Part shown: piece by piece, positions 1,785-26,215 of the stretch
How the letters are laid out: the number at the start of each line of letters is the position of its first letter
Numbering within the stretch: the stretch's first letter is position 1
Source of the DNA: an uncultured Erythrobacter sp.
GTDB lineage: Bacteria > Pseudomonadota > Alphaproteobacteria > Sphingomonadales > Sphingomonadaceae
DNA: 26,215 bases
Assembly (NCBI GenBank): GCA_913061345.1
Contig: CAJXTZ010000032.1
Location: forward strand, 1 to 26,215
Direction of reading: 5' to 3'
Made by a program: the position numbers and the translations under genes
The notes under the pieces: model-generated
What the model saw: only the letters and a program-made list of their open reading frames with translations
Databases searched by the model: none
Told to the model about the DNA's origin: nothing

Positions 1785-1966
1785 TTCAGTTCTCCATATA
1801 TCAGCAGGCCTTGCGGCCCTTCTCCAAAAGTTCAGCCACTAGTTGGTTGAACCTGATCATCCGTTCGATCTGAACCAATCTCCGTATTCCCCGAAAATAT
1901 CTTTTCTTATCAAGCGAAAAACGCGCCAAACTCAGTTCCTGCGAGTAGTTCAGGGCCTGATCTGAG

Positions 1967-2917: not shown

Positions 2918-2948
2918 CCGTTCTGCGGGGCGGGGATGGCCGACCGGA

Positions 2949-4611: not shown

Positions 4612-6915
4612 TTAAAAAGAAACCAGCACTTCTCCGCCGATCACTCTTCCCTTATTCAGCCCGGCATAAGTCCCTGGTTGACCAGGGGGGAATGGCAATG
4701 GGTTTTCCGAACCTTCTGTCACGTCGTTCAGAAGATTCTTCCCATATATAGAAAATCTATAATTCCTATTATTGGTATCCAGACTAATTGAAGCATCAAG
4801 AATATTACCAGGACTGAGAACACCGACATTGTTATCTGTGTAAAAGGAACTGTCGCGGTGGCTGTAGTTCACGCGCGTTGTCGCGTCTCCAATCTCGCCA
4901 AGCGGGAAATCCAGAAGGGCGCCAATTCCGTAGGTCCATTTAGGGGCCCGTGGAAGTTCGAGGTTTAAATCGATTTCATCTACCACTCCATCTTGAGTTA
5001 TATCGTAGAGAACCTTAGTATATTTAGCATCTGTATGGCCTACAAATCCAGTTATGATGAGATTATCCATGACAACGAGTTGACCGTCTATTTCAAAACC
5101 ACGAATTCGAGCATCGGCTGTATTTTCGATGACCTGAATAAGTCCGACAACAGGATCGGGAAATATCACTTCGCGCTGCATGTCACTTACTTCGTTTTGG
5201 AAGAATGCAGCATTCAAGGTGAGGCGGTTATCGAAGGACCTAGTCTTCACACCCAATTCGAAAGCATCAATCGTTTCCTGATCGAAAGGACCAGGCAGCG
5301 CCACAGGTGACGTGTTGCGCAGATTGTAGCCGCCTGAGCGATTGCCGCGCGACCAATGAGCATAAGCTTGCGCGTTGTCGTCGATTTCCCATTGCAGGCC
5401 GATCTTGGGACTCCACGAAGAGAAGTCCACTTCCGGTTCAAAATTGGGATCGGCATTCACGTTGAAGACGCAGTCGCCAGCTGGCAGGTTACACGTTCCA
5501 GGCGGAGGAGTGAAACCATCCGCTGATGCCGGTCCGGGGACTATTGTGGCAATCTGGACGCTCTTTTCCTCATGGGAATATCGCAGACCCAAGAGTAAAG
5601 ACAGGTCCGTGACAACTGGGAATTCGACGTGACCAAAGGCACCGTAGGTGGAGTGGTCCTGAATCCCTCCCCCATAAAAAGATATCGGCGGCGGCACAAT
5701 GCCCGCGTTCTGCCCCGGACCCAAGATTGGATCTTGAAAAAGAAAGCGTACTTCTTGGTATAGGATGTCTTGCGTAAAGTAATAAACGCCAAAAGTAAGA
5801 TCTATGTCAATAAACGATCCTGAATAGCGAAGTTCATTGCTCATCTGCTCCTGATCAGTTACTTCACCAAAATTGAAGTAACTAACATCAGTACTGTCAG
5901 CATCGAAAATTGATCGGGAATTGAAATCACGCCAGCCAAAGATATTGGTAATCGTTCCGTCACCCAGTGCTACATCCAAATTTGCCGTGGCCGTTACCAT
6001 GTCCCAATTCTGATTCAGGAAGCCTGGGTCACTCACTTCCAGATCAAAAGAATCCCTGTCATACAGGGCTCTGTTTTGACCTACGCCATGACCGTCCTCA
6101 GCCTCACCATGTTCGTATCGGACATAGAGATCAAACGAGTTACCAAGCGTCAATTCTACCGAAGGCCGAATTGAAAAGCTTTGTCCGGGGTTGAATTTTT
6201 TACCGGTGGCGAGATTGGTGAACCAACCTTCGTCATCATTAAACATGCCGGAAACCTTCGCATTCAAGATGCCAGGAACCACCGGTCCAGACACGGCAAG
6301 CTGATACGTTTGGTTAAGCCCTGTTTCCCACTGCCCTTTCGCCTTGAATTCAAACTCATCCGAGGGGCGCTTGGTATTGATGAGTACTGCGCCGCCGGTA
6401 ACGTTTCGTCCAAACAGCACGCCTTGCGGGCCACGAAGAATTTCGACGCCCTCCAGGTCGAAAGTGTCGAATGTCGCGCCAGTGGTAATGCCCAGATATA
6501 CGCCATCTATGAATACGCCCACAGCCGGATCGATCGACGGTATTGAGCTGTTGACGCCAAGGCCGCGGATGGAAAAATTCAAAGCGCCGCCGACCGAATT
6601 GATGTTTTCCAGCGTGACATTTGGTTGTGAGAAACTGATGTCCGCAACATCATTTACAAACAAAGCGTCCAGCTGATCTTCGCCATAGGCGGTAATTGCC
6701 AGCGGGACGTCCTGCACGTTTTCAGCTTGAGAGCTCTTGGTGGCAGTAACGATAATCTCATTTCTGAGAGCGTCCGTGCCTTGCGAGCCAGCTTCCTGGG
6801 CGAATACCGCGCAAGGCCCAAGGGCAATGGAAGACGCAAGGACTGCGCTTGGAATAATGAATTGATTGCAAATGCTACGATGATTATATACTAATCGCGC
6901 GTTATGTTTTTTCAT
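4612..6915 (-). CDS. TonB-dependent outer membrane receptor (copy 1)
   Basis: A 767-residue outer-membrane active transporter, energised by TonB-ExbBD, for import of a ligand too large or scarce for porins. An N-terminal signal sequence ends near AVFAQ. The plug domain follows, with NEIIVTATKSSQ, VQDVPLAITAYGEDQL and the strongly conserved VEILRGPQGVLFGRNVTGGAV. The barrel ends in NKGRVIGGEVLVSF with a terminal Phe, as outer-membrane assembly requires. I set the start at ATG 6915, with GGGGAGAAGG just upstream, rather than an in-frame TTG at 6930. The gene looks more AT-rich than the formaldehyde genes next to it. It heads the minus-strand catabolic operon, so it probably imports the substrate that the ligase and dioxygenase process. 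It is clearly paralogous to the receptor at 14087-16408. Confidence 0.95.
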   Translation of the reverse strand: MKKHNARLVYNHRSICNQFIIPSAVLASSIALGPCAVFAQEAGSQGTDALRNEIIVTATKSSQAENVQDVPLAITAYGEDQLDALFVNDVADISFSQPNVTLENINSVGGALNFSIRGLGVNSSIPSIDPAVGVFIDGVYLGITTGATFDTFDLEGVEILRGPQGVLFGRNVTGGAVLINTKRPSDEFEFKAKGQWETGLNQTYQLAVSGPVVPGILNAKVSGMFNDDEGWFTNLATGKKFNPGQSFSIRPSVELTLGNSFDLYVRYEHGEAEDGHGVGQNRALYDRDSFDLEVSDPGFLNQNWDMVTATANLDVALGDGTITNIFGWRDFNSRSIFDADSTDVSYFNFGEVTDQEQMSNELRYSGSFIDIDLTFGVYYFTQDILYQEVRFLFQDPILGPGQNAGIVPPPISFYGGGIQDHSTYGAFGHVEFPVVTDLSLLLGLRYSHEEKSVQIATIVPGPASADGFTPPPGTCNLPAGDCVFNVNADPNFEPEVDFSSWSPKIGLQWEIDDNAQAYAHWSRGNRSGGYNLRNTSPVALPGPFDQETIDAFELGVKTRSFDNRLTLNAAFFQNEVSDMQREVIFPDPVVGLIQVIENTADARIRGFEIDGQLVVMDNLIITGFVGHTDAKYTKVLYDITQDGVVDEIDLNLELPRAPKWTYGIGALLDFPLGEIGDATTRVNYSHRDSSFYTDNNVGVLSPGNILDASISLDTNNRNYRFSIYGKNLLNDVTEGSENPLPFPPGQPGTYAGLNKGRVIGGEVLVSF

Positions 6916-7388
6916 GCGCCTTCTCCCCAAAATATTATTTCAATTGATTAGCATGAACAATTTATCGGTTGAAATATAGGGAGCTTATAACTCATATTAC
7001 GTAGGCGAGGGTGTGCTGTGCGCGTGCCCTGATTTTCAATTGGGAGGAAGGTTTACCGCTCGGATGAAGGATTTATTCGATATTGCGAAGGGATCGAGAT
7101 AGGCGCCTCCAATGAAGCTTCGGCATTTTTTGGTGACTGCGATTAGGGCAATAATGGGATCGGCGGCGATTTTCCCATCGCTTGTTATATGACTTTGGCT
7201 TGCCGCTGGTAGCAGAGGTCAACTATGTTCCCGCTAATTGGCTCACATGGGCAATCCGTAGTCCCACCGCGCATCGGTGCGCTAGCAAGTTCCAGCTTAA
7301 AAGGCTGTGCGAGATACTTCCGGTCAAGCGGAGCTATGCGTCAGGGCGAGAACGGCCCGCTCCGGATGCAGAACATGAATGAAGAAAC
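6916..7388. other. Gene-free stretch upstream of TonB receptor copy 1
   Basis: These 473 bases separate the LysR stop from the receptor start. Short open frames here have no recognisable protein character. The stretch should hold the promoter of the minus-strand catabolic operon, and its part next to 6916 is AT-rich. I could not pick a convincing -35/-10 pair or a clear dyad operator, and no terminator with a T-run is visible downstream of lysR, so read-through from lysR is possible. Confidence 0.5.
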
Positions 7389-8385: not shown

Positions 8386-9492
8386 ATGAAGACTCGCGCA
8401 GCGGTGGCATTCGAAGCGAAACAACCCCTCGAAATTGTTGAACTTGACTTGGAGGGCCCAAAGGCAGGTGAGGTTCTGATCGAGATCATGGCGACCGGGA
8501 TCTGCCACACCGACGCCTATACGCTTGATGGTTTTGATTCGGAGGGCATCTTCCCTTCGGTGCTCGGCCACGAAGGCGCAGGAATTGTGCGCGAAACCGG
8601 CCCCGGCGTTGCCAGCGTGAAGCCGGGTGATCACGTCATACCGCTTTACACGCCTGAATGTCGCCAGTGTAAGATGTGCCTGTCGGGCAAGACCAATCTG
8701 TGCAGCGCCATCCGCGAGACGCAGGGTAAGGGGCTTATGCCCGACGGTACTTCGCGTTTCAGCTATAAGGGAGAGACGATCTTCCATTATATGGGCTGTT
8801 CGACATTTTCGAATTTTACCGTGCTACCCGAAATCGCAGTGGCGAAGATCCGGGAGGACGCGCCGTTCAAGACCAGTTGCTATATCGGGTGCGGCGTGAC
8901 CACGGGCGTTGGCGCAGTGGTGAATACCGCCAAGGTTCAGCCGGGTGACAATGTGGTTGTGTTCGGGCTGGGCGGCATTGGCCTCAACGTGCTGCAAGGC
9001 GCGAAAATGGCAGGCGCGGATCGGATCGTGGGCGTGGATATCAATTCTGACCGCGAAGAATGGGGCCGCAAATTCGGCATGACCGATTTCGTCAACCCCA
9101 GGGATGTCGACGATGTCGTGCAATATCTTGTCGGCATGCTTGACGGCGGGGCGGATTATTCGTTCGACTGCACCGGCAATACCGATGTCATGCGCCAAGC
9201 GCTGAAATGCTGCCATAAGGGGTGGGGGACTAGCATCGTAATCGGCGTGGCCGAAGTGGGCAAGGAAATCAGCACGCGCCCTTTTCAGCTGGTGACGGGC
9301 CGAAATTGGCGCGGCACAGCATTCGGAGGAGCCAGGGGCCGGACTGATGTGCCGAAAATCGTGGACTGGTACATGAACGGCAAGATCCAGATCGACCCGA
9401 TGATCACTCATGTCCTTACACTGGAAGAGATCAACAAGGGTTTTGACCTGATGCACGCTGGCGAATCCATTCGCAGTGTCATCCTGTTCTAG
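8386..9492 (+). CDS. frmA: S-(hydroxymethyl)glutathione dehydrogenase (class III alcohol dehydrogenase)
   Basis: This cytoplasmic enzyme oxidises S-hydroxymethylglutathione, the spontaneous adduct of formaldehyde and glutathione, to S-formylglutathione with NAD+; it can also reduce S-nitrosoglutathione. The 368 residues fit the family. Catalytic zinc ligands are in [11 protein letters not shown] (Cys40) and LGHEGAG (His62, Glu63), with Cys169 in [11 protein letters not shown]. The structural zinc site is Cys92, 95, 98 and 106 in [15 protein letters not shown]. The Rossmann loop reads [15 protein letters not shown]. The start has AGGAG 7 nt upstream. It is the first gene of a three-gene cassette with the VOC protein and S-formylglutathione hydrolase, divergent from lysR. 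The family call is secure; adhC is used for the same gene in other annotations. Confidence 0.97.
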
Positions 9493-9519
9493 GATGTCAC
9501 TTGATCATCGGGGAGAGGA

Positions 9520-9927
9520 ATGATGGCCGAACCAGCAATCTCGGGGAACGACGTTTTTTCGCACGTCTGCGTGGGAACCGATAACCTCGTCGCCACAAGC
9601 GCATTCTACGATGCAACGCTCGCTCCGCTGGGCATTAAAAACATGGGGCCATTCGGCGATAGGATCATCATTTACGGCAAGGACAAGCCGGCGTTTCTGG
9701 TGCTTCAGCCCAGCAATGGGGAACCTGCATCAGTCAGCAATGGGGCAACATTAGGCTTTTCCGCGAAAACCACAGATGAAGTCGATGCGTTTCACGCCGC
9801 AGGCCTTGCCAATGGCGGGACGGATGAGGGCTCGCCGGGACCGCGTGGCCATCTGCCGGGCTCCTATGCCGCCTATGTGCGCGATCCCGCGGGCAATAAG
9901 ATCTGCGCATTTACTTTCACCGAATAA
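9520..9927 (+). CDS. VOC (glyoxalase/bleomycin-resistance) family protein
   Basis: A 135-residue single vicinal oxygen chelate protein. It starts with VFSHVCVGTDNLVATSAFYDATLAPLG and ends YAAYVRDPAGNKICAFTF, the usual beta-alpha-beta-beta-beta halves with the DPxGNK turn. It sits 27 nt after the formaldehyde dehydrogenase and 21 nt before the formylglutathione hydrolase, so it is co-transcribed with them. Small VOC proteins occur in this place in other proteobacterial formaldehyde cassettes, but their role is not settled; handling of a glutathione adduct is an inference. Two adjacent ATGs (9520, 9523) follow GGGGAGAGGA and either could be used. Confidence 0.88.
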   Translation: MMAEPAISGNDVFSHVCVGTDNLVATSAFYDATLAPLGIKNMGPFGDRIIIYGKDKPAFLVLQPSNGEPASVSNGATLGFSAKTTDEVDAFHAAGLANGGTDEGSPGPRGHLPGSYAAYVRDPAGNKICAFTFTE

Positions 9928-9948
9928 GATTTGGAAACCAGGACAATC

Positions 9949-10794
9949 ATGACGATGGAGCAAATTAGTGCAAACCTCAGTCACGGCGGCATGCAGGGTG
10001 TCTATTCGCATCAATCGAGCGAGACGGGGACAGAGATGCAATTTTCCGTCTATGTTCCTGACCATCAACAGGGCGCGAAGCTACCGGTGCTCTGGTACCT
10101 GTCCGGGCTGACCTGCACTCATGCCAATGTTACCGAAAAGGGCGAATACCGGGCCGCCTGCGCGAAACACGGTATAGTTTTCGTGGCGCCGGATACTTCG
10201 CCCCGCGGTGATGATGTTCCCGATGACGAGAGCTATGATTTTGGCAAGGGGGCGGGCTTCTATGTCGATGCCGCGCAAGAGCCTTGGGCAAGGCATTTCC
10301 AGATGCGCAGTTATATCGAGAGCGAATTGCCCACTCTCATTGCGCAGCAATTCCCGGTCGACATGCAGCGGCAGGGTATCACCGGGCATTCGATGGGTGG
10401 GCACGGCGCGCTCACCATCGGCTTGCGCAATCCGGACAGGTTCCGCTCGGTCAGCGCCTTTTCACCGATTGTCGCGCCTGCCCAGGTTCCATGGGGTGAA
10501 AAGGCGCTGAGCAGTTATCTTGGGGATGATCGATATCTATGGCGGGAATATGATGCCTGCGCATTGATAGAGGATGGCGCACGGCTTCCTGATCTGCTGA
10601 TCGATCAGGGCATGGCGGACAATTTCCTGGGCGAACAGCTCAAGACCCATCTGCTGGATCAGGCAGTTGCAGATGCCGGGATTCCTGCAAACATCCGCAT
10701 GCATCCCGGTTATGACCATTCCTATTACTTCATCTCAAGCTTCATGGACGAACATGTCGGCTGGCACGCAGAGAGGCTGAAGGAATACGCTTGA
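9949..10794 (+). CDS. fghA: S-formylglutathione hydrolase
   Basis: This serine hydrolase of the esterase D family splits S-formylglutathione to formate and glutathione, the second step of glutathione-dependent formaldehyde oxidation. From ATG 9949 the protein has 281 residues, matching the family. The motifs are LPVLWYLSGLTCTHANVTEKGEYR, the nucleophile elbow TGHSMGGHGA (Ser148), Asp224 in DQGMADNFL and His257 in HPGYDHSYYF, giving a complete triad. I rejected an upstream in-frame TTG (9931) because ATG 9949 has AGGA five bases before it and gives the usual N-terminus. It is the last gene of the cassette, and the intrinsic terminator at 10879-10922 follows. Called frmB or fghA in different species. 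Confidence 0.96.
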   Translation: MTMEQISANLSHGGMQGVYSHQSSETGTEMQFSVYVPDHQQGAKLPVLWYLSGLTCTHANVTEKGEYRAACAKHGIVFVAPDTSPRGDDVPDDESYDFGKGAGFYVDAAQEPWARHFQMRSYIESELPTLIAQQFPVDMQRQGITGHSMGGHGALTIGLRNPDRFRSVSAFSPIVAPAQVPWGEKALSSYLGDDRYLWREYDACALIEDGARLPDLLIDQGMADNFLGEQLKTHLLDQAVADAGIPANIRMHPGYDHSYYFISSFMDEHVGWHAERLKEYA

Positions 10795-10932: not shown

Positions 10933-12093
10933 TCAGGACAGAAACGGCTCATAATTGTCCGAGAAAATATCACGCCCGATGATGAGCTTCATGATTTCTG
11001 AAGTCCCTGCAAGGATCCGGTTGATCCGAGCATCTGTAAACCGCCGGCAGATCTCAAATTCGCGCATATAGCCAGCGCCACCATGTAGCTGAACGCCTTC
11101 ATCGACCATGCGCCATTCCAGTTCGCTGGTCACAAGCTTCAGTCTGGCAGCTTCCGCCGGCTGCAGCTCTCCGGCATTATGTTTCTCCACGCAGGAATCC
11201 AGATAACATTGCGCTGCATGAAGATGCGCATCCAGTTCGGCGAGCTTGAATTGTGTATTCTGCATGTCCGCTATGCGCTTTCCGAAAGCCTTGCGTTCGA
11301 GCACATAGTTTCTTGTCAGATCGAATACCCGGTGAGCGTTGCACATATAGCTAACCGAACCGATCAGGCGCTCTTCCACCAGGCCTTGCATCAGATAATG
11401 GAAGCCCTTGGTCGGATCGCCGAGAATGTTCTCTTTCGGCACTTTCACATTGTCGAAAAACAGTTCTGCAGTGTCCTGCGCGACCAGGCCCATTTTTTCC
11501 AGATTTCTGCCACGGCGGAAGCCTTCCATTCCGCGCTCTACGCACATTAGCGCCATTGAACGCGGGTTTTCCGACCCCCCTGATTTTGCTGCAACGATGA
11601 CAATATCGGCATTGATCCCGTTGGAGATATAGATCTTCGATCCGTTCAGGAGGAAATGATCGCCCTTATTCTCAATCGTGGTGTGCATGGCAGAAAGATC
11701 GCTGCCGGTATCTGGTTCTGTCATGGCGACGGCAAGTATAGCTTCACCTGACACGGCCTTTGGCAGGAATCTTGCCTGCTGCTCTTCAGAGCCGAAACGT
11801 CTCAAATATGGTCCGACCATTCGGCTATGGAGGGTTGGAAACCACTCGCCGCAATCGGCGCGTGCGACTTCTTCCATGACGACCTGTTCATATCGGAAAT
11901 CGTCATCCCCGATGCCGCCATACTCCTCATCGGCCCAGATCAGTAGAAATCCATTTTCGCCAGCCTTTCTGTAGATTTCCCGATCGACGATGCCTTCGGC
12001 ACGGTACGCTTCCATGTTCGGGGCAACCTCACGTTGCAGAAAGCGACGAAACGCCTCACGGAAGGAATTTTGTTCATCAGTAAATTCGCGCAT
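10933..12093 (-). CDS. Acyl-CoA dehydrogenase
   Basis: A 386-residue FAD flavoprotein that makes the 2,3-enoyl-CoA and passes electrons to ETF. Signatures are MTEPDTGSDLSAM at residues 124-136 (FAD/substrate region), KIYISNG near 153-159, ERKAFGKRIADMQNTQFKLAEL (266-287) and the C-terminal FTDARINRILAGTSEIMKLIIGR. At the place where medium-chain enzymes carry the catalytic Glu (YEGT) this protein has LAGT. The likely base is instead Glu241 in LVEERLIG, the arrangement known from isovaleryl- and long-chain acyl-CoA dehydrogenases. The ATG start has AAGG 8 nt upstream. It follows the acyl-CoA ligase by 51 nt on the same strand, so ligase and dehydrogenase form a two-gene unit that feeds the enoyl-CoA to the MaoC hydratase encoded on the divergent arm. 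Confidence 0.95.
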   Translation of the reverse strand: MREFTDEQNSFREAFRRFLQREVAPNMEAYRAEGIVDREIYRKAGENGFLLIWADEEYGGIGDDDFRYEQVVMEEVARADCGEWFPTLHSRMVGPYLRRFGSEEQQARFLPKAVSGEAILAVAMTEPDTGSDLSAMHTTIENKGDHFLLNGSKIYISNGINADIVIVAAKSGGSENPRSMALMCVERGMEGFRRGRNLEKMGLVAQDTAELFFDNVKVPKENILGDPTKGFHYLMQGLVEERLIGSVSYMCNAHRVFDLTRNYVLERKAFGKRIADMQNTQFKLAELDAHLHAAQCYLDSCVEKHNAGELQPAEAARLKLVTSELEWRMVDEGVQLHGGAGYMREFEICRRFTDARINRILAGTSEIMKLIIGRDIFSDNYEPFLS

Positions 12094-12144: not shown

Positions 12145-13776
12145 CTATTTATAATCATTGTGGGGTTCGATAGGAATTAGATCTTCGCGAAGCTTGGTTT
12201 TGACAATCTTATTCAAAGTCGCGCGCGGGAAATCTTTAACAAAGATGATTTCTCGTACGATTTTAAAATCTGCAAGATCGCGCTTGCAGGCTTCAATTAT
12301 TGAACTTTCGACATCATCTTTATCGCCGTCCTTGGGGATCACGAAAGCTACGGGGACTTCATCGAACATGTAGTGCTTGCGGCCGACGACGGCACATTCC
12401 TCGACCAGTCCGGTCTTCATGATGACGGTTTCAATTTCCGATGCTGCGACGTTTTCCGCGCCAACCTTCAGCATGTCTTTGTCCCGACCGAGGAAGAAGA
12501 GATAACCATCTTCATCAATCGAAATCATATCGCCGGTATTCATCCAGCCGCCCTCGTCCACTGCATTGCGAGTGGCATCCGGATCATTGAAGTATTCTTT
12601 GAACAGAGAGACGCCGGGAACGCCCCGCGCGAATAGATTGCCCTGTCCGCCAGGCCCCACGGGATTGCCGTCATCGTCACGTATTTCGATATCATAGCAT
12701 GGAGCGGCACGGCCGATGGAGCCTTCAGGCGGCGGCTGGTGGGGGTCGGTTACGATACCTTGCGTAATCGTTTCGGTCATGCCCCATGCGCAGACCACTC
12801 TGATTCCGAATTTATTGCGTATTGCTGTGGAATATCCGCCCACCATCCAGAATTTGTAATGATGGCCTTTCGGCACATCGCGCTGCATCAGCGGGTAGAT
12901 CAGGAAAGGTATGACAAATGTCCATGTGCATTTGTTGCGTATGGAAACCTCCCAGAAGCGGGACACAGACAGGCGTGGCTGCAGGACAATCGTGCCGCCA
13001 GACCAAAGGGTTGTCATGGTCGAATACGACACGGCGTTGATGTGAAAGAGCGGAGAAAAAACAAGCGCTGCATCGTCACTTGTGACGCTGAAGTTGCGCG
13101 CATTCATCTGTGCGCCCCATATGAAATTGCCGTGGGTCAGCACTACGGGCTTGGGGCGTGAAGTCGTGCCTGACGTAAACTGGATCAGGAAATCTGCGCT
13201 CGCATCCGGACTGCGGCCTGGCGGCCGGGGCCGGGGGCTAAGGCATGATTCAAAGGACACATAACCAGAGTGGGAAAAGTCTGGCTGCTCGCTGCCGGAA
13301 TTGTCCTTGGTGACAATCACGAAGGCAAGATCCGGGGCGGTTTTACTAATCAAGGAAGCAAAGGCAGGCTGGGTGATGGCAGCGGTTATTTCGGCCTTCT
13401 CGACATAATATTCGATATCCCGTTCAACAGAGCGCGTGTTTGTTGTCACTGCGACTGCGCCAATTCGCGCACATGCGAACAATATAATCATGAATTCGGG
13501 ACAGTTTTCCATGTGGACTAGTAATCTGTCCCCTTGAGATATTCCCCGCTCAACAAGGGCGGATGCGAACCTGTCGGCGCTCTCCCTCATCTCTTTATAT
13601 GTCCAACTGTTCGGAGCGCCTTCAAAAGGCTCCCAGATGAGAAATGTCTTATCCGGAGTTCGCTCAGCCCATTTGTCGAGTATCCAGGCAACATCTTGTC
13701 CATGAACCATCAACCGTTGCGAATCTGCAATACGAGCAAGAGTAGTACCAGGGTCTTCAGACAGGCGTGATGTCAT
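12145..13776 (-). CDS. AMP-dependent acyl-CoA ligase (second copy, CaiC-like)
   Basis: A 543-residue class I adenylate-forming ligase. The phosphate loop FTSGTTSRPK is at 200-209, WGMTET at 331-336, the intact TGD at 414-416, GRDKDMLKVGAENV at 430-443, and the C-terminal RATLNK puts the catalytic Lys at 523. The overall pattern recalls the crotonobetaine/carnitine-CoA ligase and other short acid-CoA ligases, but that does not identify the substrate. The start is ATG 13776 with a perfect GGAGGAG six bases upstream; the longer GTG frame (13791) would begin within that site. The short acyl-CoA dehydrogenase gene follows by 51 nt. It faces away from the TonB receptor/MaoC/thiolase operon, so it probably performs the activating step of that pathway. 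Confidence 0.94.
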   Translation of the reverse strand: MTSRLSEDPGTTLARIADSQRLMVHGQDVAWILDKWAERTPDKTFLIWEPFEGAPNSWTYKEMRESADRFASALVERGISQGDRLLVHMENCPEFMIILFACARIGAVAVTTNTRSVERDIEYYVEKAEITAAITQPAFASLISKTAPDLAFVIVTKDNSGSEQPDFSHSGYVSFESCLSPRPRPPGRSPDASADFLIQFTSGTTSRPKPVVLTHGNFIWGAQMNARNFSVTSDDAALVFSPLFHINAVSYSTMTTLWSGGTIVLQPRLSVSRFWEVSIRNKCTWTFVIPFLIYPLMQRDVPKGHHYKFWMVGGYSTAIRNKFGIRVVCAWGMTETITQGIVTDPHQPPPEGSIGRAAPCYDIEIRDDDGNPVGPGGQGNLFARGVPGVSLFKEYFNDPDATRNAVDEGGWMNTGDMISIDEDGYLFFLGRDKDMLKVGAENVAASEIETVIMKTGLVEECAVVGRKHYMFDEVPVAFVIPKDGDKDDVESSIIEACKRDLADFKIVREIIFVKDFPRATLNKIVKTKLREDLIPIEPHNDYK

Positions 13777-14086
13777 TTTGATCTCCTCCACTTTGCGGCC
13801 TTTTAGATTACGTTTCTATGGCCTTTTTAATCACGTTGCTTGTTCCCTTGAGTAGCTGCTTTTGCGTCGTTTTGATATTTGCAAAACGCATATCATCTAT
13901 TTTGAGAAGGGGAGTATGTTCTGACTGAAACTGTTAGATAAGAAGTGACGACGTTCCGTGAAGGCACCGGTTTAGGGGGCACTGAACAAAGCGAGATGGT
14001 TTGAGATTTCACGCGGCGGCGAAAGATAAAAAATAAAGAAATGCGCAGTGACAGGCTGCAGCTATATAATGCGGGAGGAACGTAAC
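13777..14086. promoter_or_regulatory. Divergent promoter region of the CoA-ester island
   Basis: These 310 bases lie between the divergent acyl-CoA ligase and TonB receptor genes and hold no coding frame I can support. They should contain both promoters. The most notable element is the 21-bp dyad at 13868-13888. A TATAAT hexamer at 14065-14070 lies too near the start codon to be an obvious -10 element. No regulator gene lies next to this region, so the controlling protein is not visible here. Confidence 0.6.
13868..13888. promoter_or_regulatory. Candidate operator dyad CGTTTTG-N7-CAAAACG
   Basis: A perfect 7-bp inverted repeat with a 7-bp spacer (ATATTTG), about 92 bp upstream of the acyl-CoA ligase start and 199 bp upstream of the TonB receptor start. 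Its size and symmetry fit a dimeric regulator of TetR, IclR or similar type. The function is inferred from position and symmetry only. Confidence 0.45.
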
Positions 14087-16408
14087 ATGTCTTGGAAACG
14101 AAATGCATTGTGCCTTGTGTCAGGCACGGCATTGGCCGCTGCGCTGGCGACAACCGCGCATGCTCAGCAAACTACTGCCACAGAGCAGGAAGCCGAACAG
14201 CAGGATTCCGAACGGCAAGATAGAGGCGCACGCCGCGCCTCCGACGCACTCACAAATACAATTATAGTAACAGCCACAAAACGCGCAGGTGGTGTTGCAG
14301 TGCAGCAGGCGCCGATTGCGATTACTGCATATGGCGAAGAGCAGCTGGAGGCCATGCGCGTTCGTGATATCGAATCGCTCAGCTACAGCCAGCCCAATGT
14401 CTCGCTTGAAGATGTGGGTTCCATTCAGGGCACCGCAAATTTTTCTATTCGCGGACTTGGCATAAACAGCTCTATTCCTTCGATAGATCCTACAGTCGGC
14501 GTCTTTGTTGATGGTGTTTATCTTGGCATGAATGCGGGGTTGCTCTTTGATACATTTGACCTCGAGGCAATTGAAATATTGCGCGGGCCGCAGGGGGTAT
14601 TGTTCGGTCGCAATGTAACCGGTGGTGCGGTCTTGCTTCGCACGAAGGGGCCTACGGATGAATTCGAGGCAAGCGCAAAGGCCACACTGGAAACAGGGCT
14701 GAGCCAGACCTATCAGGCATCGGTTTCCGGACCGCTCGCTCCCGGCGTTTTGAACGCCAAGATTGCCGCCTATTACAATCACGATGATGGCTATTTCACC
14801 AATGAGCTTGATGGGGAATCACTCGGGGAAGTCGAAACCTTCGTTATTCGTCCGGTGATAGAATTCACCCCGACCGATGCCCTGGAAATCGTGGTTCGAT
14901 ATGAGCACGGTGAGGCCGAGGGGGACGGCACGATCGGCCAGAATCGTGCATTGTACGAACGGGGAACGGACAAGGTGATAACCGACGAGCCCGGCTTCAT
15001 GGATCACGAGTGGGATTTCGTCAGCGCCGAAACAAACATCGACGTTGGTTTTGGCGATGGTGTGATCACCAATATTTTTGGGTGGCGTAAATACAATTCC
15101 TCTTCTCAAAGCGATTTTGATGCGACATCATTGAATCTATTGTTGTTCGGAGAGATCACCGAGCAGGAACAGTTCAGTAACGAGCTTCGCTATTCCGGGC
15201 GGTTTTTCGATCGTGTGGATTTGACCGTGGGGGGGTTCTGGTTTGATCAACAATTGAAATATCAGGAAACCCGTTTCCTGTTTCAGGATCCCAGTCTTGC
15301 ACCGGCTCAGGATGCTGGACTGGTTCCTCCCCCACTCTCGTTTTATGGCGGCGGCATTCAGGACCATAATGTGCTCGGCGTTTTCGGGCAGGCTGCGATT
15401 GATCTTACGTCCTCTCTGGCGCTGGATGTGGGATTGCGCTGGAGCCGCGAAGAAAAATCCGTTCAGCTGGCGACAGTCCAGCCCGGACCTGCCTCTCCCG
15501 ATCTTCTGTCCATTCCGGCAGGTGCCTGTAATATCCAGGCAGGCGATTGCTTCTTCAATCTGAATGCCGATCCTACTTTCCAGCCGGAGGATGACTGGAA
15601 AAGTCTGTCGCCTCAGGTTGGCCTGAGATATTCGCTATCCGAAGATGTGCGCCTGTATGGCCATTGGTCCAGAGCGTATCGTTCCGGCGGCTATAATCTG
15701 CGCAACACAGTTCCGTCTGCTTCGCCAGGTCCGTTCGATCAGGAGCAGGTCGACAGTTTCGAGCTTGGTTTGAAATCAGAGCCTCTGACTGGTGCAACTC
15801 TCAATGTCGCACTTTTCAGGACGACAATTTCCGACATGCAGCGCGAAGTTCTTCTGAGTGATCCAATTCTTGGAACAATTCAGCAGATTGCGAACACTGC
15901 AGATGCGGAGATATTGGGGTTTGAAGTCGAGGCGATGTATTCGCCAGTCGACGATTTGGTATTCACCGGATCGGTCGGGCACCTGAGCGCTGAATATCAG
16001 GAGATCCTGTTCGACATCAGCGGTGACGGTGTGGTTGATGACAATGACCTTGCCCTGGCTCTGCCGCGTGTGCCGGAGTGGACCTATAATCTTGGCGTCG
16101 TCTACGATTATGACATCGTCAGTGCCGGTATTCTTACTGCGCGGGCAAATTTCAGCCACCGCGATAGCCAGGCATTCACTGACAACAATCGCGGTATCTT
16201 GAGCGGTGCGGACATTCTTGATGCATCATTGTCATTCGTGACGGGAGATGGAACCCTGCGGTTCACGGTCTTCGGGTCCAACCTTCTTGACGAGATAACC
16301 GAGGGATCGGATTCGCAAACGCCATTCCCTCCCGGATCGACAAATGGATCTCATTCGCCACTCAACAAGGGGCGCGTATTTGGAGCTTCGGTGAAGGTCG
16401 AATTTTAA
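14087..16408 (+). CDS. TonB-dependent outer membrane receptor (copy 2)
   Basis: A 773-residue TonB-dependent transporter. The signal peptide MSWKRNALCLVSGTALAAA continues to a cleavage site near AHAQ. A Gln/Glu-rich linker (about residues 25-40) is followed by NTIIVTATKRAGG, the plug with AIEILRGPQGVLFGRNVTGGA, and the barrel ending NKGRVFGASVKVEF. The start is ATG 14087 with GGGAGG at 14073-14078; two upstream ATGs in the same frame lack a ribosome site. It is paralogous to the receptor at 4612-6915: the extracellular segment with VPPPLSFYGGGIQDH, the cysteine pair CNIQAGDC, and DISGDGVVDDNDLALALPR all have close counterparts there. It heads the SDR-MaoC-thiolase operon and probably imports its substrate. 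Confidence 0.95.
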   Translation: MSWKRNALCLVSGTALAAALATTAHAQQTTATEQEAEQQDSERQDRGARRASDALTNTIIVTATKRAGGVAVQQAPIAITAYGEEQLEAMRVRDIESLSYSQPNVSLEDVGSIQGTANFSIRGLGINSSIPSIDPTVGVFVDGVYLGMNAGLLFDTFDLEAIEILRGPQGVLFGRNVTGGAVLLRTKGPTDEFEASAKATLETGLSQTYQASVSGPLAPGVLNAKIAAYYNHDDGYFTNELDGESLGEVETFVIRPVIEFTPTDALEIVVRYEHGEAEGDGTIGQNRALYERGTDKVITDEPGFMDHEWDFVSAETNIDVGFGDGVITNIFGWRKYNSSSQSDFDATSLNLLLFGEITEQEQFSNELRYSGRFFDRVDLTVGGFWFDQQLKYQETRFLFQDPSLAPAQDAGLVPPPLSFYGGGIQDHNVLGVFGQAAIDLTSSLALDVGLRWSREEKSVQLATVQPGPASPDLLSIPAGACNIQAGDCFFNLNADPTFQPEDDWKSLSPQVGLRYSLSEDVRLYGHWSRAYRSGGYNLRNTVPSASPGPFDQEQVDSFELGLKSEPLTGATLNVALFRTTISDMQREVLLSDPILGTIQQIANTADAEILGFEVEAMYSPVDDLVFTGSVGHLSAEYQEILFDISGDGVVDDNDLALALPRVPEWTYNLGVVYDYDIVSAGILTARANFSHRDSQAFTDNNRGILSGADILDASLSFVTGDGTLRFTVFGSNLLDEITEGSDSQTPFPPGSTNGSHSPLNKGRVFGASVKVEF

Positions 16409-16498: not shown

Positions 16499-16507
16499 AT
16501 GTGCTTC

Positions 16508-17407
16508 ATGTCATTTGAAGGAAGAGTCGCGCTGGTTTCAGGCGCAGGCAATGGTCTTGGTAGATCGTATGCTTTGATGTTCGCCAGTCTGGGCGCGCGC
16601 GTCGTGGTCAATGATTACGGGACGACGCTGGCCGGCACAGGGAGCGACAACACGCCTGCACAAAAGGTTGTAAGCGAAATAGAAAAGGCAGGCGGCCAAG
16701 CGGTGGCCAATTTTGATACAGTTGAAGACGGAGCCCGCCTTGTCGAAACTGCGATGGATACGTTCGGGCAGCTTGATGTAGTGGTAAACAATGCCGGTTT
16801 CCTGCGCGATACATCTTTTCACAAGATGGAAGAGGGCGATTGGTTCGATGTTATCAACGTCCAGTTGAACGGGGCTTTCAAGGTAAATCGCGCGGCATGG
16901 CCGCACTTGCGCGACCAGAGTTATGGCCGGATCGTCAATACCGCCTCCGCCGCTGGGATTTACGGAAATTTCGGGCAGGTCAATTACAGTTCGGCAAAGC
17001 TGGCCCTGCACGGCATGACACAGTCGCTCGCCATAGAGGGGCGAAAGCGCAACATTCTGGTCAATACCGTTGCGCCTGCTGCGGCATCCCGGCTGACTGA
17101 CACCGTTATCAGTCGTGATCAGGCGACAGGGTTGCGGCCGGAATTGGTGAGCCCGCTGGTCGGCTATCTTTGCAGCGAACAGAGCGAGCAGACAGGCGGA
17201 CTTTTCGAAGCGGGCGCAGGATGGTTTGGCAAGCTGCGTTGGGAACGCAGCGCTGGCATCGCTCTGCCCGGCGAAATTTCGATTGATGATATTGCCGGCA
17301 ATATCGGCGCCATCAACGATTTCGACGACGCGACCCATCCTAAGGACATTTCTGAAGCTTTCGCTCCGTTTGGCAAAGCCTTGGGCGCTGTTGTTGCAGC
17401 ACGATGA
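16508..17407 (+). CDS. SDR-family 3-hydroxyacyl-CoA dehydrogenase (MFE-2-like)
   Basis: A 299-residue short-chain dehydrogenase. The cofactor loop SGAGNGLG is at 11-18, followed by VVNDYG, NNAG at 94-97 and the catalytic set Ser147, Tyr160 and Lys164 (YSSAK). The segment VVNDYGTTLAGTGSDNTPAQKVV and the long C-terminal tail past residue 240 resemble the hydroxyacyl-CoA dehydrogenase part of peroxisomal multifunctional enzyme type 2 rather than the FabG group. It probably oxidises a (3R)-hydroxyacyl-CoA to the 3-oxoacyl-CoA with NAD+. It is followed after 13 nt by the MaoC-type subunit gene. The start is fixed by AAGGAGG 9 nt upstream. The substrate is not visible in the sequence. Confidence 0.92.
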   Translation: MSFEGRVALVSGAGNGLGRSYALMFASLGARVVVNDYGTTLAGTGSDNTPAQKVVSEIEKAGGQAVANFDTVEDGARLVETAMDTFGQLDVVVNNAGFLRDTSFHKMEEGDWFDVINVQLNGAFKVNRAAWPHLRDQSYGRIVNTASAAGIYGNFGQVNYSSAKLALHGMTQSLAIEGRKRNILVNTVAPAAASRLTDTVISRDQATGLRPELVSPLVGYLCSEQSEQTGGLFEAGAGWFGKLRWERSAGIALPGEISIDDIAGNIGAINDFDDATHPKDISEAFAPFGKALGAVVAAR

Positions 17408-17420
17408 GGGGGACGCCAAA

Positions 17421-17864
17421 GTGATTGACCGGTCCTTTATCGGCTATGAAATGGAGCCTTTCGAAGCGCCCCTGGAAATAGGGCAAATGACCTTGTTCGC
17501 CCGAGCGCTGGGGGAGCAAGGATCAATCTACGTCGATGAGAAAGTGGCGCTTGCGCAGGGCTTTTCTTCAATTGTCGCCCTACCGACCTTCCTGATCTGC
17601 CTGGGGACCAGGGAAGACCTGACATACGGGCTCTTCGACAAGCTTGGAATTGAGCTTTCCAAATTGCTGCACGGTGAACAGGAATTCTTCCTCGAACGGA
17701 CTGTATGTGCCGGCGAAATACTGGTCGGCCGCAAGAAGGTGGTGGATATTTACGACAAGAAGGATGGTGCGCTGGAATTCGTAGTCACTGAAATCAGTTA
17801 TCATGATCAACACGAACGATTTGTCGGAAGTGATAGATGCACATTCGTCATCAAGAACAAGTGA
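17421..17864 (+). CDS. MaoC-like dehydratase, N-terminal (FAS1-type) domain subunit
   Basis: A 147-residue single hot-dog domain of the MaoC_dehydrat_N/FAS1-like type. It contains IGQMTLFARALGEQGSIYVDEKVALAQGFSSIVALPTFL, where authentic hydratases read DxNPIH; here the line is GEQGSIYVDE, so the catalytic Asp/His are missing. ERTVCAGEILVGRKKV and FVVTEISYHDQHERFVGSDRCTFVI match the rest of the fold. The start is the GTG at 17421, with GAGGGGG 8 nt upstream, 13 nt after the SDR stop; a longer ATG frame would overlap the SDR gene deeply. It most likely forms a heterodimer with the catalytic partner encoded 18 nt downstream, as ChsH1-ChsH2 do in steroid side-chain degradation. Which partner binds the acyl chain is inferred. 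Confidence 0.88.
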   Translation: MIDRSFIGYEMEPFEAPLEIGQMTLFARALGEQGSIYVDEKVALAQGFSSIVALPTFLICLGTREDLTYGLFDKLGIELSKLLHGEQEFFLERTVCAGEILVGRKKVVDIYDKKDGALEFVVTEISYHDQHERFVGSDRCTFVIKNK

Positions 17865-18317: not shown

Positions 18318-18389
18318 TCGGCATGCAATTTCTGATGCGTGATCACATTCAGCGCAAAACGCGCCAGGATAAGGACGATAGACTGCAGT

Positions 18390-19883
18390 ATGGCTAAGCT
18401 TGATTCAATGACAGGAATAACCGCTTTCGGATTCTATGTCCCATCGTTGAGGCTACAGCGCAAAACGCTGCTGGGTGAGTTTGGCTGGATCAATCCGGGG
18501 CTTGCTGGATACCGGCAGGGCGCGCGCGCCGTCTGCGATTTTGACGAGGATGTCGTTACATTGGCGGTGGAGGCTATACTCCAGTCGCGCAGTTACACAG
18601 CGCTGGCCGATATTTCGGCATTGTTCATGGCTTCGAACAATTTTCCTTTTGTCGACCGCCTGAATACATCAATTGTTGCTGCTGCATGCGGCATGCCCAA
18701 CATGCTTGAAGCTGTCGATGTCGCAAATACGCAGCGCGCCGGGCTTTCTGCCTTCCGAATGGCGAGGGAATTTTCGTCCAACAATGCTTCCAGCCAGGAA
18801 GTCATCTGCGTGGCGTCGGATAGACGGCGCGGCCGGCCCGGCAGCACGGTAGAAATGACGAGTGGGGATGCAGCAGCCGCCTTTGCCTTCGGCAACGAGA
18901 ATGTTCTTGCACGAATCCTTGCTCATCGCGCGTCCACCGTAGATTTCGTTGATCATTACAGGTCCGCTGGCGCATCGTATGATTATGGTTGGGAAGAACG
19001 CTGGATCCGTGATGCAGGTTATCTGAAAATCGCGCCGCCGGTCCTGCTGGCTACGCTAGAGGATGCAGGCGTTTCGCCTGAGGACATTGATCACTTCATC
19101 TTCCCTTCAACCATCCGCGGCGTCACCGCTCAATTGGCGGCGGCTGCAGGAATTGCGAAAGAGGCTGTTCGCGACGATTTTCAGGACATTATGGGAGAAT
19201 CCGGTGTCGCCCATCCTCTTTTGATGCTTGCGGATACCCTTAACAGCGCCGGCGCCGGTGAAAAAATCCTGCTGGCGGGATTTGGTCAGGGCTGCGAGGC
19301 TTTCGTTCTGGAAACCACGCCGGAAATCGCCACTATGCCCCGGCGAGAGGGCGTGCGTGCTAAAGTGCAGAGTGATGAGCAGATAGATCTGCCGACAATA
19401 CGATATCTTTCCTTCAATGGGCAGCTTGACGTGGATTTTGGACCGCGCGCAGAAGCAGATCGCAAGACCTCGCTGAGTGCGGCTTATCGTCATGCCCCGG
19501 ACCTTGCCCGGCTCGTGGCCGGAAAATGCACGGTTTGTGGAACCGTGCAATTTCCCAAGGCGGCGATCTGCGTCAATCCGAATTGTCGCCATGAACGTGA
19601 GCAGGATGACCATTCGCTGGCTCAGGAAGCGGCGAGCATCAGAACGATTACGACGGATTGGCTCGGCTTCTCTCTTAATCCACCAAACCGATATGGCATG
19701 GTCGAATTCGAGAGCGGCGCGCGCATGATTGTGAACTTTACCAGCACCGCTGATGAGCCCGCGATCAGCAGCACGATTAAGATGGCATATCGTATTCAAG
19801 AGTTTGATCCGATGAGGAATTATCATCGGTATTGCTGGAAGGCGAAACCTGATCACGATGAGGCCGGCGGAGAAGAAAAATGA
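18390..19883 (+). CDS. Ketoacyl synthase III/HMG-CoA synthase-like protein fused to DUF35 OB/zinc-ribbon domain
   Basis: A 497-residue fusion. Residues 1-310 have the thiolase fold of HMG-CoA synthase/FabH proteins: ITAFGFYVPSLRL, DFDEDVVTLAVEA, SGDAAAAFAFG and the late EKILLAGFGQGCEAFVLE. Residues about 365-485 are a DUF35 domain, with the zinc ribbon Cys380, 383, 394 and 399 and an OB-like part (MVEFESGARMIVNFT). At the usual nucleophile position the sequence reads NTQRAGLSA, so Cys appears replaced by Gln115. The His-containing HQPN/HQAN segment reads FIFPSTIRG, and the NxGN segment reads MGESGV. The synthase domain therefore looks inactive in condensation and may be structural. The thiolase gene overlaps it by 4 bp (ATGA). 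The start is less certain: ATG 18390 has AAGGA about 13 nt upstream, while ATG 18408 and an upstream GTG 18339 are alternatives. Confidence 0.88.
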   Translation: MAKLDSMTGITAFGFYVPSLRLQRKTLLGEFGWINPGLAGYRQGARAVCDFDEDVVTLAVEAILQSRSYTALADISALFMASNNFPFVDRLNTSIVAAACGMPNMLEAVDVANTQRAGLSAFRMAREFSSNNASSQEVICVASDRRRGRPGSTVEMTSGDAAAAFAFGNENVLARILAHRASTVDFVDHYRSAGASYDYGWEERWIRDAGYLKIAPPVLLATLEDAGVSPEDIDHFIFPSTIRGVTAQLAAAAGIAKEAVRDDFQDIMGESGVAHPLLMLADTLNSAGAGEKILLAGFGQGCEAFVLETTPEIATMPRREGVRAKVQSDEQIDLPTIRYLSFNGQLDVDFGPRAEADRKTSLSAAYRHAPDLARLVAGKCTVCGTVQFPKAAICVNPNCRHEREQDDHSLAQEAASIRTITTDWLGFSLNPPNRYGMVEFESGARMIVNFTSTADEPAISSTIKMAYRIQEFDPMRNYHRYCWKAKPDHDEAGGEEK

Positions 19884-21085
19884 CAAGCGGAATTCGTGAT
19901 AAGGTCGCCATCATCGGCATGGGTTGCAGCAAGTTTGGCGAACGCTTCGATTGCGACGCGCAAGACCTGATGCTCGAAGCCTTTTTCGAGGCGAGGGAAG
20001 ATGCCGGTATCGGCACGAACGAGATTGATGCGGCCTGGCTGGGGCACGCCATGCCGGAACAGGGCATGGGACCGACAGCGACCCCTGCATCTGTTGCACT
20101 TCGATTGCCGAATATCCCCGTCACCCGCGTGGAAAATGCTTGCGCAACAGGGACAGAGGCATTGCGCGGGGCTGTATATGCCGTCGCCTCTGGTGCGTCG
20201 CGAATGGCATTGGCGATTGGCGTGGAGAAGCTGAAAGATACCGGATTTGGCGGTCTGCCGGAATTCGATTTTGGTCCCCGCGCTAATCTCTATGCCCCGT
20301 CCATGAGTGCGCCTGGCGGGTTTGCGCAGCTTGCGTCTGCCTATAGCGCTAAATACGCGATTGACCCTGCTGACGTGAAGCGCGCGATGGCGCATATCTC
20401 TTGGAAAAGTCATGAGAATGGCGTGCTAAATCCGAAGGCGCATCTGCGCAGGCACGTGGAGATGGACACGATCTTGAAGGCGCCGATGATCGCGGCGCCC
20501 CTCGGGCTTTACGATTGCTGCGGTGTGAGTGACGGCGCTGCCTGTGCAATCGTTACCACGCCGGAGGTGGCCGCGAGCCTGAAGCAGAAACATGATTATG
20601 TGATGGTAAAAGCTTTGCAGCTGGCAGTGTCCAATGGCGTAGAGGCGTCTCATTCTTCTTGGGACGGCGCGAGCATCACCACGACACGCAATGCTGCCAA
20701 GCGCGCATATCATGAAGCCGGGATTAAGGATCCTCGCAAGGAAATCAGCCTTATCGAAGTGCATGACTGTTTTTCGATTACCGAACTCGTCACTATGGAG
20801 GACCTCCATATCTCGGAAGACGGTGCGGCTGTGGCCGATGTATTGAATGGATTTTATGATCGAGATGGCGGGGTGCCCTGTCAGATTGACGGTGGCCTGA
20901 AGTGCTTTGGCCATCCGATCGGCGCTTCCGGATTAAGAATGGCGTATGAAGTCTATCTGCAATTGCTGGGTAGGGCTGGGGAGCGGCAGATGGAAAACCC
21001 CTCCATCGGTCTGACGCATAATCTTGGCGGATTTCCGCATGAGAACGTGAGCGGCATCGGCATCTATGGATTGCCTGAAGCCTGA
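19880..21085 (+). CDS. SCPx-type thiolase / acetyl-CoA acyltransferase-like
   Basis: A 401-residue thiolase-fold protein of the sterol-carrier-protein-X/lipid-transfer group. The nucleophile region is VENACATGTEALRGA (Cys88), with EVHDCFSITE (His295, Cys297) and CFGHPIGASG (His345). The C-terminus THNLGGFPHENVSGIGIYG is typical of the SCPx and DUF35-partnered groups, not the FadA group. With Cys88 and His345 retained it can be a true thiolase that releases acetyl- or propionyl-CoA; the Ltp2-like aldolases lack these residues. Its ATG overlaps the stop of the DUF35 fusion, so translation is coupled and a complex with that protein is likely. It is the last gene of the TonB-SDR-MaoC operon. The product chain length is unknown. 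Confidence 0.92.
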   Translation: MTSGIRDKVAIIGMGCSKFGERFDCDAQDLMLEAFFEAREDAGIGTNEIDAAWLGHAMPEQGMGPTATPASVALRLPNIPVTRVENACATGTEALRGAVYAVASGASRMALAIGVEKLKDTGFGGLPEFDFGPRANLYAPSMSAPGGFAQLASAYSAKYAIDPADVKRAMAHISWKSHENGVLNPKAHLRRHVEMDTILKAPMIAAPLGLYDCCGVSDGAACAIVTTPEVAASLKQKHDYVMVKALQLAVSNGVEASHSSWDGASITTTRNAAKRAYHEAGIKDPRKEISLIEVHDCFSITELVTMEDLHISEDGAAVADVLNGFYDRDGGVPCQIDGGLKCFGHPIGASGLRMAYEVYLQLLGRAGERQMENPSIGLTHNLGGFPHENVSGIGIYGLPEA

Positions 21086-25428: not shown

Positions 25429-26167
25429 TTAGGCGTCATCTTGAGCAACGAACTCCGCCCTTGCGGGATCGTAAACGTGCTGCGTGACAGTACCGTCACT
25501 GATCCGTGACACCAATTCGTTGATGATCGCGAGCGGGACAAGGAACCACTCGCGCGGCTGTACAGTTTTGCCAAATCGATCGCCTGCAGAAAGATCAAGG
25601 CGGGCAGGCCCGAGCGCACGATGGATCAGCCGTTCGAGCTTGGTCCGGTTGATGTTGAAGAGCTTGTACTCTGCCACGACTTCGACGTCCGCGAGCATGA
25701 AAGTCGGATCGTTACGCGCGTTGGCAATCCGGCTGAGGACCGGCTGCCCTGTAACACCGATCTTATGGATCAGCTCGCGATGCTCGTCGACGTAGGGGTG
25801 CGACGATTTGCTTCGGAGTACATAGATCGTGCCGCTCTCCAGATCGTCGGGCTCAGCGGTGTCTCCAAAAAGCGGTCCTGCGCTTTGCTCGCTCACGCGC
25901 CTAGCGGACTCGTCCCGATAGAGCGACTTCTGGAATGAGCGTGAAAGGACCGTCGCCTCGGTTGCGTTGTCATATATGACCCGGACACGGCGATCAGCCC
26001 GCTCATACTGAGTCGTGAAGGCGTCGGTCGAGGCGGCGATGTATGCGAGTTGCCCGCCGACGATGAAGAAATTTCCCGGCTGGATTTCGGCCAGTGTGAC
26101 CTCGGAATTGCCGAGCGCCTTGGCCTGTCTGCTACCGGCCTGCAGATCGACCTGCACCGCCTCGAAC
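25429..26167 (-). CDS. GIY-YIG nuclease-like (T5orf172/MUG113-type) protein, 5' end missing
   Basis: The genuine reading frame runs from the contig end to the TAA at 25429, 245 complete codons. Its C-terminal half has the T5orf172/MUG113 pattern of the GIY-YIG fold: GTIYVLRSK (GIY strand), HKIGVTGQPVLSRIANARNDPT (YIG strand and Arg helix), then AEYKLFNINRTKLERLIHRALG and REWFLVPL. Such proteins are found in phages, plasmids and islands, where most are unstudied. The N-terminal half (VQVDLQAGSRQAKALGNSEVTLAEIQPGNFFI, shown in part) is not recognised. The open frame continues upstream to an apparent ATG at 26208, but the first fourteen residues are translated from sequencing adapter and must be discarded. 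The true start lies beyond the contig. Confidence 0.8.
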
Positions 26168-26215
26168 CTGTCTCTTATACACATCTCCGAGCCCACGAGA
26201 CTAGGCATGATCTCG
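26168..26215. other. Illumina Nextera adapter with i7 index (not genomic)
   Basis: CTGTCTCTTATACACATCT (26168-26186) is the 19-bp Nextera transposase mosaic end. CCGAGCCCACGAGAC (26187-26201) is the Read 2 tail, TAGGCATG (26202-26209) equals the i7 index I know as N706, and ATCTCG (26210-26215) begins the P7 arm. These come in exactly the order of a read that runs through a short insert. The bases are library sequence, and the biological contig ends at 26167. Confidence 0.97.

Follow-up and report, generated by a model that had tools for sequence, protein, structure and literature searches.

The stretch analysed here (the window, 26,215 nucleotides of contig CAJXTZ010000032.1, assembly GCA_913061345.1, from an uncultured Erythrobacter sp.) encodes a protein in which a domain resembling hydroxymethylglutaryl-CoA (HMG-CoA) synthase (HMGCS), devoid of its catalytic residues, is fused to a DUF35 domain, and which is probably a non-catalytic partner of the thiolase encoded directly behind it. 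The 401-residue thiolase is most likely a catabolic SCP2-type beta-ketothiolase, and the 497-residue fusion dedicated to it, for example in estrogen-type breakdown pathways. The two genes and their junction are as follows.

18390..19883, + strand: fusion gene, 497 amino acids, with an HMGCS-like pseudoenzyme domain (about residues 8-320), a linker and a DUF35 zinc-ribbon/OB region (about residues 373-487)
19880..21085, + strand: SCP2-type thiolase, 401 amino acids, with Cys88, H295-D-C297-F and His345
19880..19883, + strand: 4-bp ATGA stop/start overlap of the fusion and thiolase genes

The fusion is read from the ATG at 18390 in preference to a GTG at 18339, from which a 514-residue reading is also open, because a 98% identical relative (P0001) begins at that ATG. 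Its fold is of the HMGCS type (structure modelling covered single chains), and PhlA-type, MucABC and archaeal HMGCS chains are among the nearest folds retrieved by a fold search; the PhlA-type and archaeal HMGCS chains both belong to thiolase/HMGCS-like/DUF35 complexes. Toward the C-terminus, zf-ChsH2 (PF12172) scores 26.5 bits, above its Pfam cut-off of 23.2, Cys380, Cys383, Cys394 and Cys399 supply the zinc ligands of the Cys4 ribbon that defines DUF35, the OB domain (PF01796) reaches 16.2 bits against a cut-off of 27.1, and the DUF35 chain of the archaeal complex matches residues 382-493 of the 514-residue reading with an E-value of 3.3e-5. The zinc knuckle at residues 380-399 has the spacing C-x2-C-x10-C-x4-C, its last spacer two residues longer than in the canonical C-x2-C-x10-C-x2-C (PMC12329534), and that spacer is mostly x2 in the actinobacterial and haloarchaeal rows of the joint alignment.

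Aligned with archaeal HMGCS, the fusion has Gln115 in place of the catalytic Cys114 and Asn83 in place of Glu82, while Pro239 occupies the catalytic His column and Glu270 the Asn column. FabH controls in the joint alignment carry Cys, His and Asn in the columns of Gln115, Pro239 and Glu270, and the alignment is thus reliable at these sites. The same degeneracy recurs among 240 distinct fusion-family proteins, chiefly proteobacterial with a few actinobacterial and haloarchaeal members, none of which retains either the catalytic Cys or the catalytic Glu. The Cys column holds Gln in 178, Leu in 42, Met in 8, Arg in 4, Thr in 3, Ala in 2, and Pro, Gly and His in one each; the Glu column is Thr (233), Ser (4), Asn (2) or Ala (1); the His column is Pro in 223 and His in one; and the Asn column is Asp in 129, Glu in 94 and Asn in two. 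The pattern in the window is therefore not a chance event, and the whole fusion family, not just this one protein, has shed the synthase residues. A second search had a haloarchaeal fusion as query; among the best 120 of its 861 matches the Cys column is Thr in all 120, the His column Gln in 119 and the Asn column Asp in 119. The haloarchaeal loci L099 and L106 have Thr rather than Gln at the Cys column and their thiolase upstream rather than downstream; judging from these sequences, the haloarchaeal loss of Cys was possibly an independent event. In a tree of the HMGCS domain, the node uniting PhlA-like chains with the bacterial fusions has a support of 0.21, which fits one or several origins of the fusion.

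Could the nucleophile have moved? Of the HMGCS-domain positions occupied by Cys in over 30% of the 240 rows, none is both conserved and Cys in the window. Position 66 alone exceeds half (176 of 240), and there the window has Ser; the window does have Cys at 302 (116) and 49 (80), two unconserved positions, but not at 240 (92), 253 (74) or 268 (88). Cys occurs anywhere within positions 112-118 in eight rows, and at 115 in none. The sequence-only reading had described a dead synthase domain fused to DUF35, with Gln115 at the Cys column and the four zinc cysteines, two of the three folds of the archaeal and PhlABC assemblies thus lying in one chain; alignment, Pfam and fold matches agree with all of this and with the resemblance to those two assemblies. 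Its claim of lost catalytic residues also holds, but the His and Asn segments that it took to be missing do align, with only their residues changed.

The thiolase, by contrast with the synthase domain, keeps its catalytic set. It scores 642.4 bits with NF004810 (cut-off 403), and Cys88, HDCF (295-298) and His345 (in GHP) are present in 70 of 70 full-length thiolase relatives. HDCF is the SCP-2 thiolase motif, while DUF35-bound aldolases have YDHF or YDCY, and in one of them, CtSal, Gly replaces the thiolase nucleophile (PMC12329534). Two Bacillota three-gene clusters with a PhlABC/MucABC-like look (L100 and L104) encode thiolase-family proteins without HDCF, in which GHP is replaced by GHA or GHV. 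Because the window protein has Cys88, HDCF and His345, unlike the aldolases and unlike L100 and L104, thiolysis is favoured over both retro-aldol cleavage and PhlC-like transfer. The protein thus appears, by its residues, to be an intact thiolase fit for thiolysis, in keeping with what the sequence-only reading had proposed for it along with the 4-bp overlap and intact Cys88 and His345.

The two genes travel together. In a survey of 142 alphaproteobacterial genomes (fusion at E<=1e-3, thiolase at E<=1e-80), fusion matches were found in 24, of which 22 were strong (E<=3e-97) and two weak (7e-12 and 4e-5), and the thiolase occurred in exactly the 22 genomes with a strong fusion match, its weakest match there being 1e-169; the 120 genomes with neither strong match include the two with a weak fusion match. 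One genome (G042) has two fusions and two thiolases, and in the genome of an Aromatoleum locus (G002, locus L027) each of three fusions is accompanied by a thiolase of its own. Across 89 fusion-thiolase pairs in fetched loci, both genes lie on the same strand in all 89, their alignment ends are -60 to 300 bases apart in 78, and the thiolase sits just upstream of the fusion in two haloarchaea. Within a set of 80 loci the thiolase is present in 74, in some clipped by the contig end, and four of the six loci without it stop no more than 300 bases past the fusion. The patristic distances of fusion and thiolase correlate at 0.94; with 81 core pairs, none of 1000 label shuffles reaches the value, and the fusion diverges about 2.2 times faster than the thiolase.

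Several observations weigh against a dedicated, non-catalytic partner. One genome (G085) has two thiolases and one listed fusion, the thiolase lies 1.2-7 kb downstream in nine of the 89 pairs, and in two loci (L005 and L010) the roughly 4 kb that follow the fusion contain none. Co-inheritance of one operon partly explains the tree correlation and the co-occurrence, which come from non-independent genomes and the comparison of a single gene pair. In twelve of the 240 fusions at least two of the four zinc cysteines are absent (L017, L022, L031, L073, L084, L102, L107, L120 and L125-L128); the thiolase still adjoins the fusion in L084 and L107, and zinc seems, on these sequences, dispensable in some lineages. 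Finally, R146, E155, R191 and H275 of the HMGCS-like domain are nearly fixed (232, 237, 236 and 228 of 240, respectively) and could point to a function of its own. E155 and R191 are common to most haloarchaeal and both PhlA-like rows and so may be a general trait of such chains, R146 is common to the PhlA-like rows, and H275 is common to neither group.

The genes around the pair in the window are the following.

10933..12093, - strand: acyl-CoA dehydrogenase
12145..13791, - strand: acyl-CoA ligase
14048..16408, + strand: TonB-dependent receptor
16499..17407, + strand: short-chain dehydrogenase (SDR), a candidate 3-hydroxyacyl-CoA dehydrogenase by its context
17226..17864, + strand: open reading frame of a FAS1_DH/MaoC-N type hydratase, with the domain from about residue 70 and an uncertain start codon
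17883..18317, + strand: MaoC-type hydratase (PF01575)

Going by their family names, the ligase, dehydrogenase, hydratases, SDR and thiolase would together make one round of beta-oxidation. The mechanism that we infer, including complex formation, stoichiometry, reaction direction and substrate, would begin with the SDR and hydratases of the operon supplying a 3-oxoacyl-CoA, whose 3-keto carbon would be attacked by Cys88 of the thiolase, with the HDCF/His345 set carrying out proton transfer; acetyl-CoA would then depart and CoA free the shortened acyl-CoA. The HMGCS-like domain would take no part in the chemistry. If PhlABC and the archaeal complex are a guide, it would pack as a dimer beside the thiolase, and the fused DUF35 would bridge the two and close the substrate channel. 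A bolder idea, which we regard as tentative and on balance doubtful, is that the old HMGCS site has been rebuilt, such that H275 (five positions past the lost Asn column) together with R146, E155 and R191 (elsewhere in the domain) would form the walls of a chamber for the bulky acyl group or the CoA of the 3-oxoacyl substrate, which would be offered to the thiolase over a CoA site common to both. The tripartite beta-ketothiolases of this kind, acting on ring-bearing acyl-CoAs, would then be a class of their own. If so, the class would span Proteobacteria, Actinomycetota and haloarchaea, and its members often carry the names HMG-CoA synthase and acetyl-CoA acetyltransferase in present annotations.

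Other readings of the pair have to be weighed. A true HMG-CoA synthase, which is how the fusion is often annotated and what the top NCBIfam names and several source names say, is close to impossible: curated models stay below their cut-offs (148.9 vs 244 and 103.7 vs 353.35 bits), the 240 relatives have lost the catalytic residues, and HMG-CoA reductase was found in none of the 23 fusion-bearing genomes searched, the controls being positive in 5 of 14. The prevalence of Gln at the Cys column (178 of 240) brings to mind instead a KSQ-type decarboxylase, in which Cys-to-Gln conversion goes with retention of the other catalytic residues, His and Asn, which are needed, and which would here act on a malonyl-CoA-like ester. 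The remaining rows, with Leu, Met, Arg, Thr and others, and the uniform Thr of the haloarchaeal-type fusions do not suit such an enzyme, nor do the His and Asn columns, which are Pro and Asp/Glu in nearly all 240 (Pro239 and Glu270 in the window), and we give this idea very little credence.

Retro-aldol cleavage, which the sequence-only reading had offered beside thiolysis, fares equally poorly. A Sal/Ltp2-like retro-aldolase partnered by the DUF35 part of the fusion would accord with the DUF35 partners typical of Sal and Ltp2 and with the adjoining hydratase genes, yet the window protein has HDCF instead of YDCY/YDHF and Cys88 where CtSal has Gly; the syntenic estrogen-type locus L101 has its own Ltp-like protein, whose residues at the same sites are Gly and YDAF, and a separate OB-fold gene, and the SDR of the operon could make a 3-oxo compound. 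Such cleavage is highly improbable. Hardly better is a PhlABC/MucABC-like C-acyltransferase that builds rather than cleaves, suggested by the PhlA-type and MucABC chains among the nearest folds of the fusion: the thiolase-family proteins of the PhlABC/MucABC-like L100 and L104 differ from that of the window in lacking HDCF and in having GHA/GHV for GHP, and the neighbours in the window are a CoA ligase, an acyl-CoA dehydrogenase, hydratases, an SDR and TonB receptors.

A non-catalytic partner of a thiolase has clear relatives. In PhlABC, PhlA lacks the Cys and Glu of HMGCS and only PhlC residues act, expression of the entire operon is needed, and the DUF35 protein PhlB mediates PhlA-PhlC contact and closes a cavity common to all three (PMC6392133); the SSO2064 paper names PhlA an inactive member of the thiolase superfamily and reports DUF35 homologs fused to members of that superfamily in general (PMC2954200). 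PhlABC (PpATase of Pseudomonas protegens; 5m3k) thus resembles the window in co-encoding the three folds with an HMGCS-like part lacking Cys and Glu, but it consists of three chains where the window has HMGCS-like and DUF35 parts in one open reading frame, and PhlC is an acyltransferase of a biosynthetic operon whereas the window genes lie in a catabolic setting. The archaeal thiolase/HMGCS/DUF35 complex has the same three folds, its HMGCS chain being a top fold match and its thiolase the second-best solved relative of the window thiolase; it differs in an active HMGCS (Cys114, Glu82), in separate chains and in serving the mevalonate pathway. Benzoylsuccinyl-CoA thiolase BbsAB (7pxp) likewise pairs a thiolase with a DUF35-type partner. 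Its thiolase chain is a sequence relative of the window thiolase (122 bits), and BbsAB is not known to have an HMGCS-like subunit. In the steroid aldolases Sal-Shy and Ltp2-ChsH2 a DUF35 domain also meets a thiolase fold, but they have YDHF/YDCY, with Gly at the nucleophile of CtSal, against HDCF and Cys88 in the window, and their DUF35 is carried by a hydratase rather than by an HMGCS fold (PMC12329534). Dead HMGCS-like subunits and some DUF35 fusions to the thiolase superfamily were therefore already known; the sequence comparisons made here add that fusions of a dead HMGCS with DUF35 form a conserved family, closely coupled to an intact thiolase and set among catabolic genes. The titles and abstract openings searched, a coverage that largely leaves out subscription journals, announced no HMGCS-DUF35 fusion as a thiolase partner.

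The estrogen clusters offer a place to apply this. In the edc estradiol cluster of Caenibius (Novosphingobium) tardaugens, EGO55_13555 is annotated as HMG-CoA synthase beside the acetyl-CoA acyltransferase EGO55_13550; the authors who described it left it unassigned because an anabolic reaction appeared senseless there, found that it falls into a group apart in the HMGCS tree and proposed a different activity, such as that of a thiolase (PMC7793797). The gene order of that cluster is P450, chsH2-like, lipid-transfer protein, enoyl-CoA hydratase and BadI-like genes, thiolase, HMGCS, dehydrogenase and acyl-CoA dehydrogenase. Plasmid p3 of Novosphingobium sp. ES2-1 (L101) has the same order plus one hypothetical gene, with a fusion-family member in the HMGCS slot (Leu in the nucleophile column, 26% identity to the window fusion) next to an HDCF thiolase. 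By this gene order shared with L101, rather than by its own sequence, EGO55_13555 is linked to the fusion family, and we offer as a testable alternative that it may be a non-catalytic partner of its neighbouring thiolase. The accessible text of PMC12507874 does not mention HMG-CoA, and the terms HMG, thiolase and DUF35 were not found in that of PMC10161427. The fusion-thiolase pair also adjoins aromatic-ring dioxygenase genes on plasmids of Rhodococcus qingshengii and Mycobacterium avium.

The two family searches returned 1828 and 861 matches at E<=0.001, the architecture being known for the best 120 of each, and the source names, where given, are often HMG-CoA synthase, a label that is wrong for the fusion family because the catalytic residues rule it out. 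The kind of dead HMGCS-like chain that serves biosynthesis in PhlABC is met again, this time joined to DUF35, in catabolic gene clusters, a finding relevant to the question of why some thiolases require partner proteins.

Elsewhere in the window, 861-4544 (-) holds consecutive genes for a XylE-type catechol 2,3-dioxygenase (310.6 bits to 1mpy), an alpha/beta hydrolase and a second acyl-CoA ligase, possibly a meta-cleavage branch of the same pathway; the dioxygenase and hydrolase hint at an aromatic compound as substrate. The TonB-dependent receptors at 4612-6930 (-) and 14048-16408 (+) resemble each other by eye. Consecutive genes at 8386-10794 (+) encode a glutathione-dependent formaldehyde dehydrogenase, a VOC protein and an S-formylglutathione hydrolase, a set for formaldehyde detoxification. 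At the far end, a stretch at 26168-26201 (-) matches what we take to be the Nextera transposase adapter; it is because of this stretch that the open reading frame 25429-26208 opens with MPSLVGSEMCIRDR, and the window seems to end in an assembly artefact.
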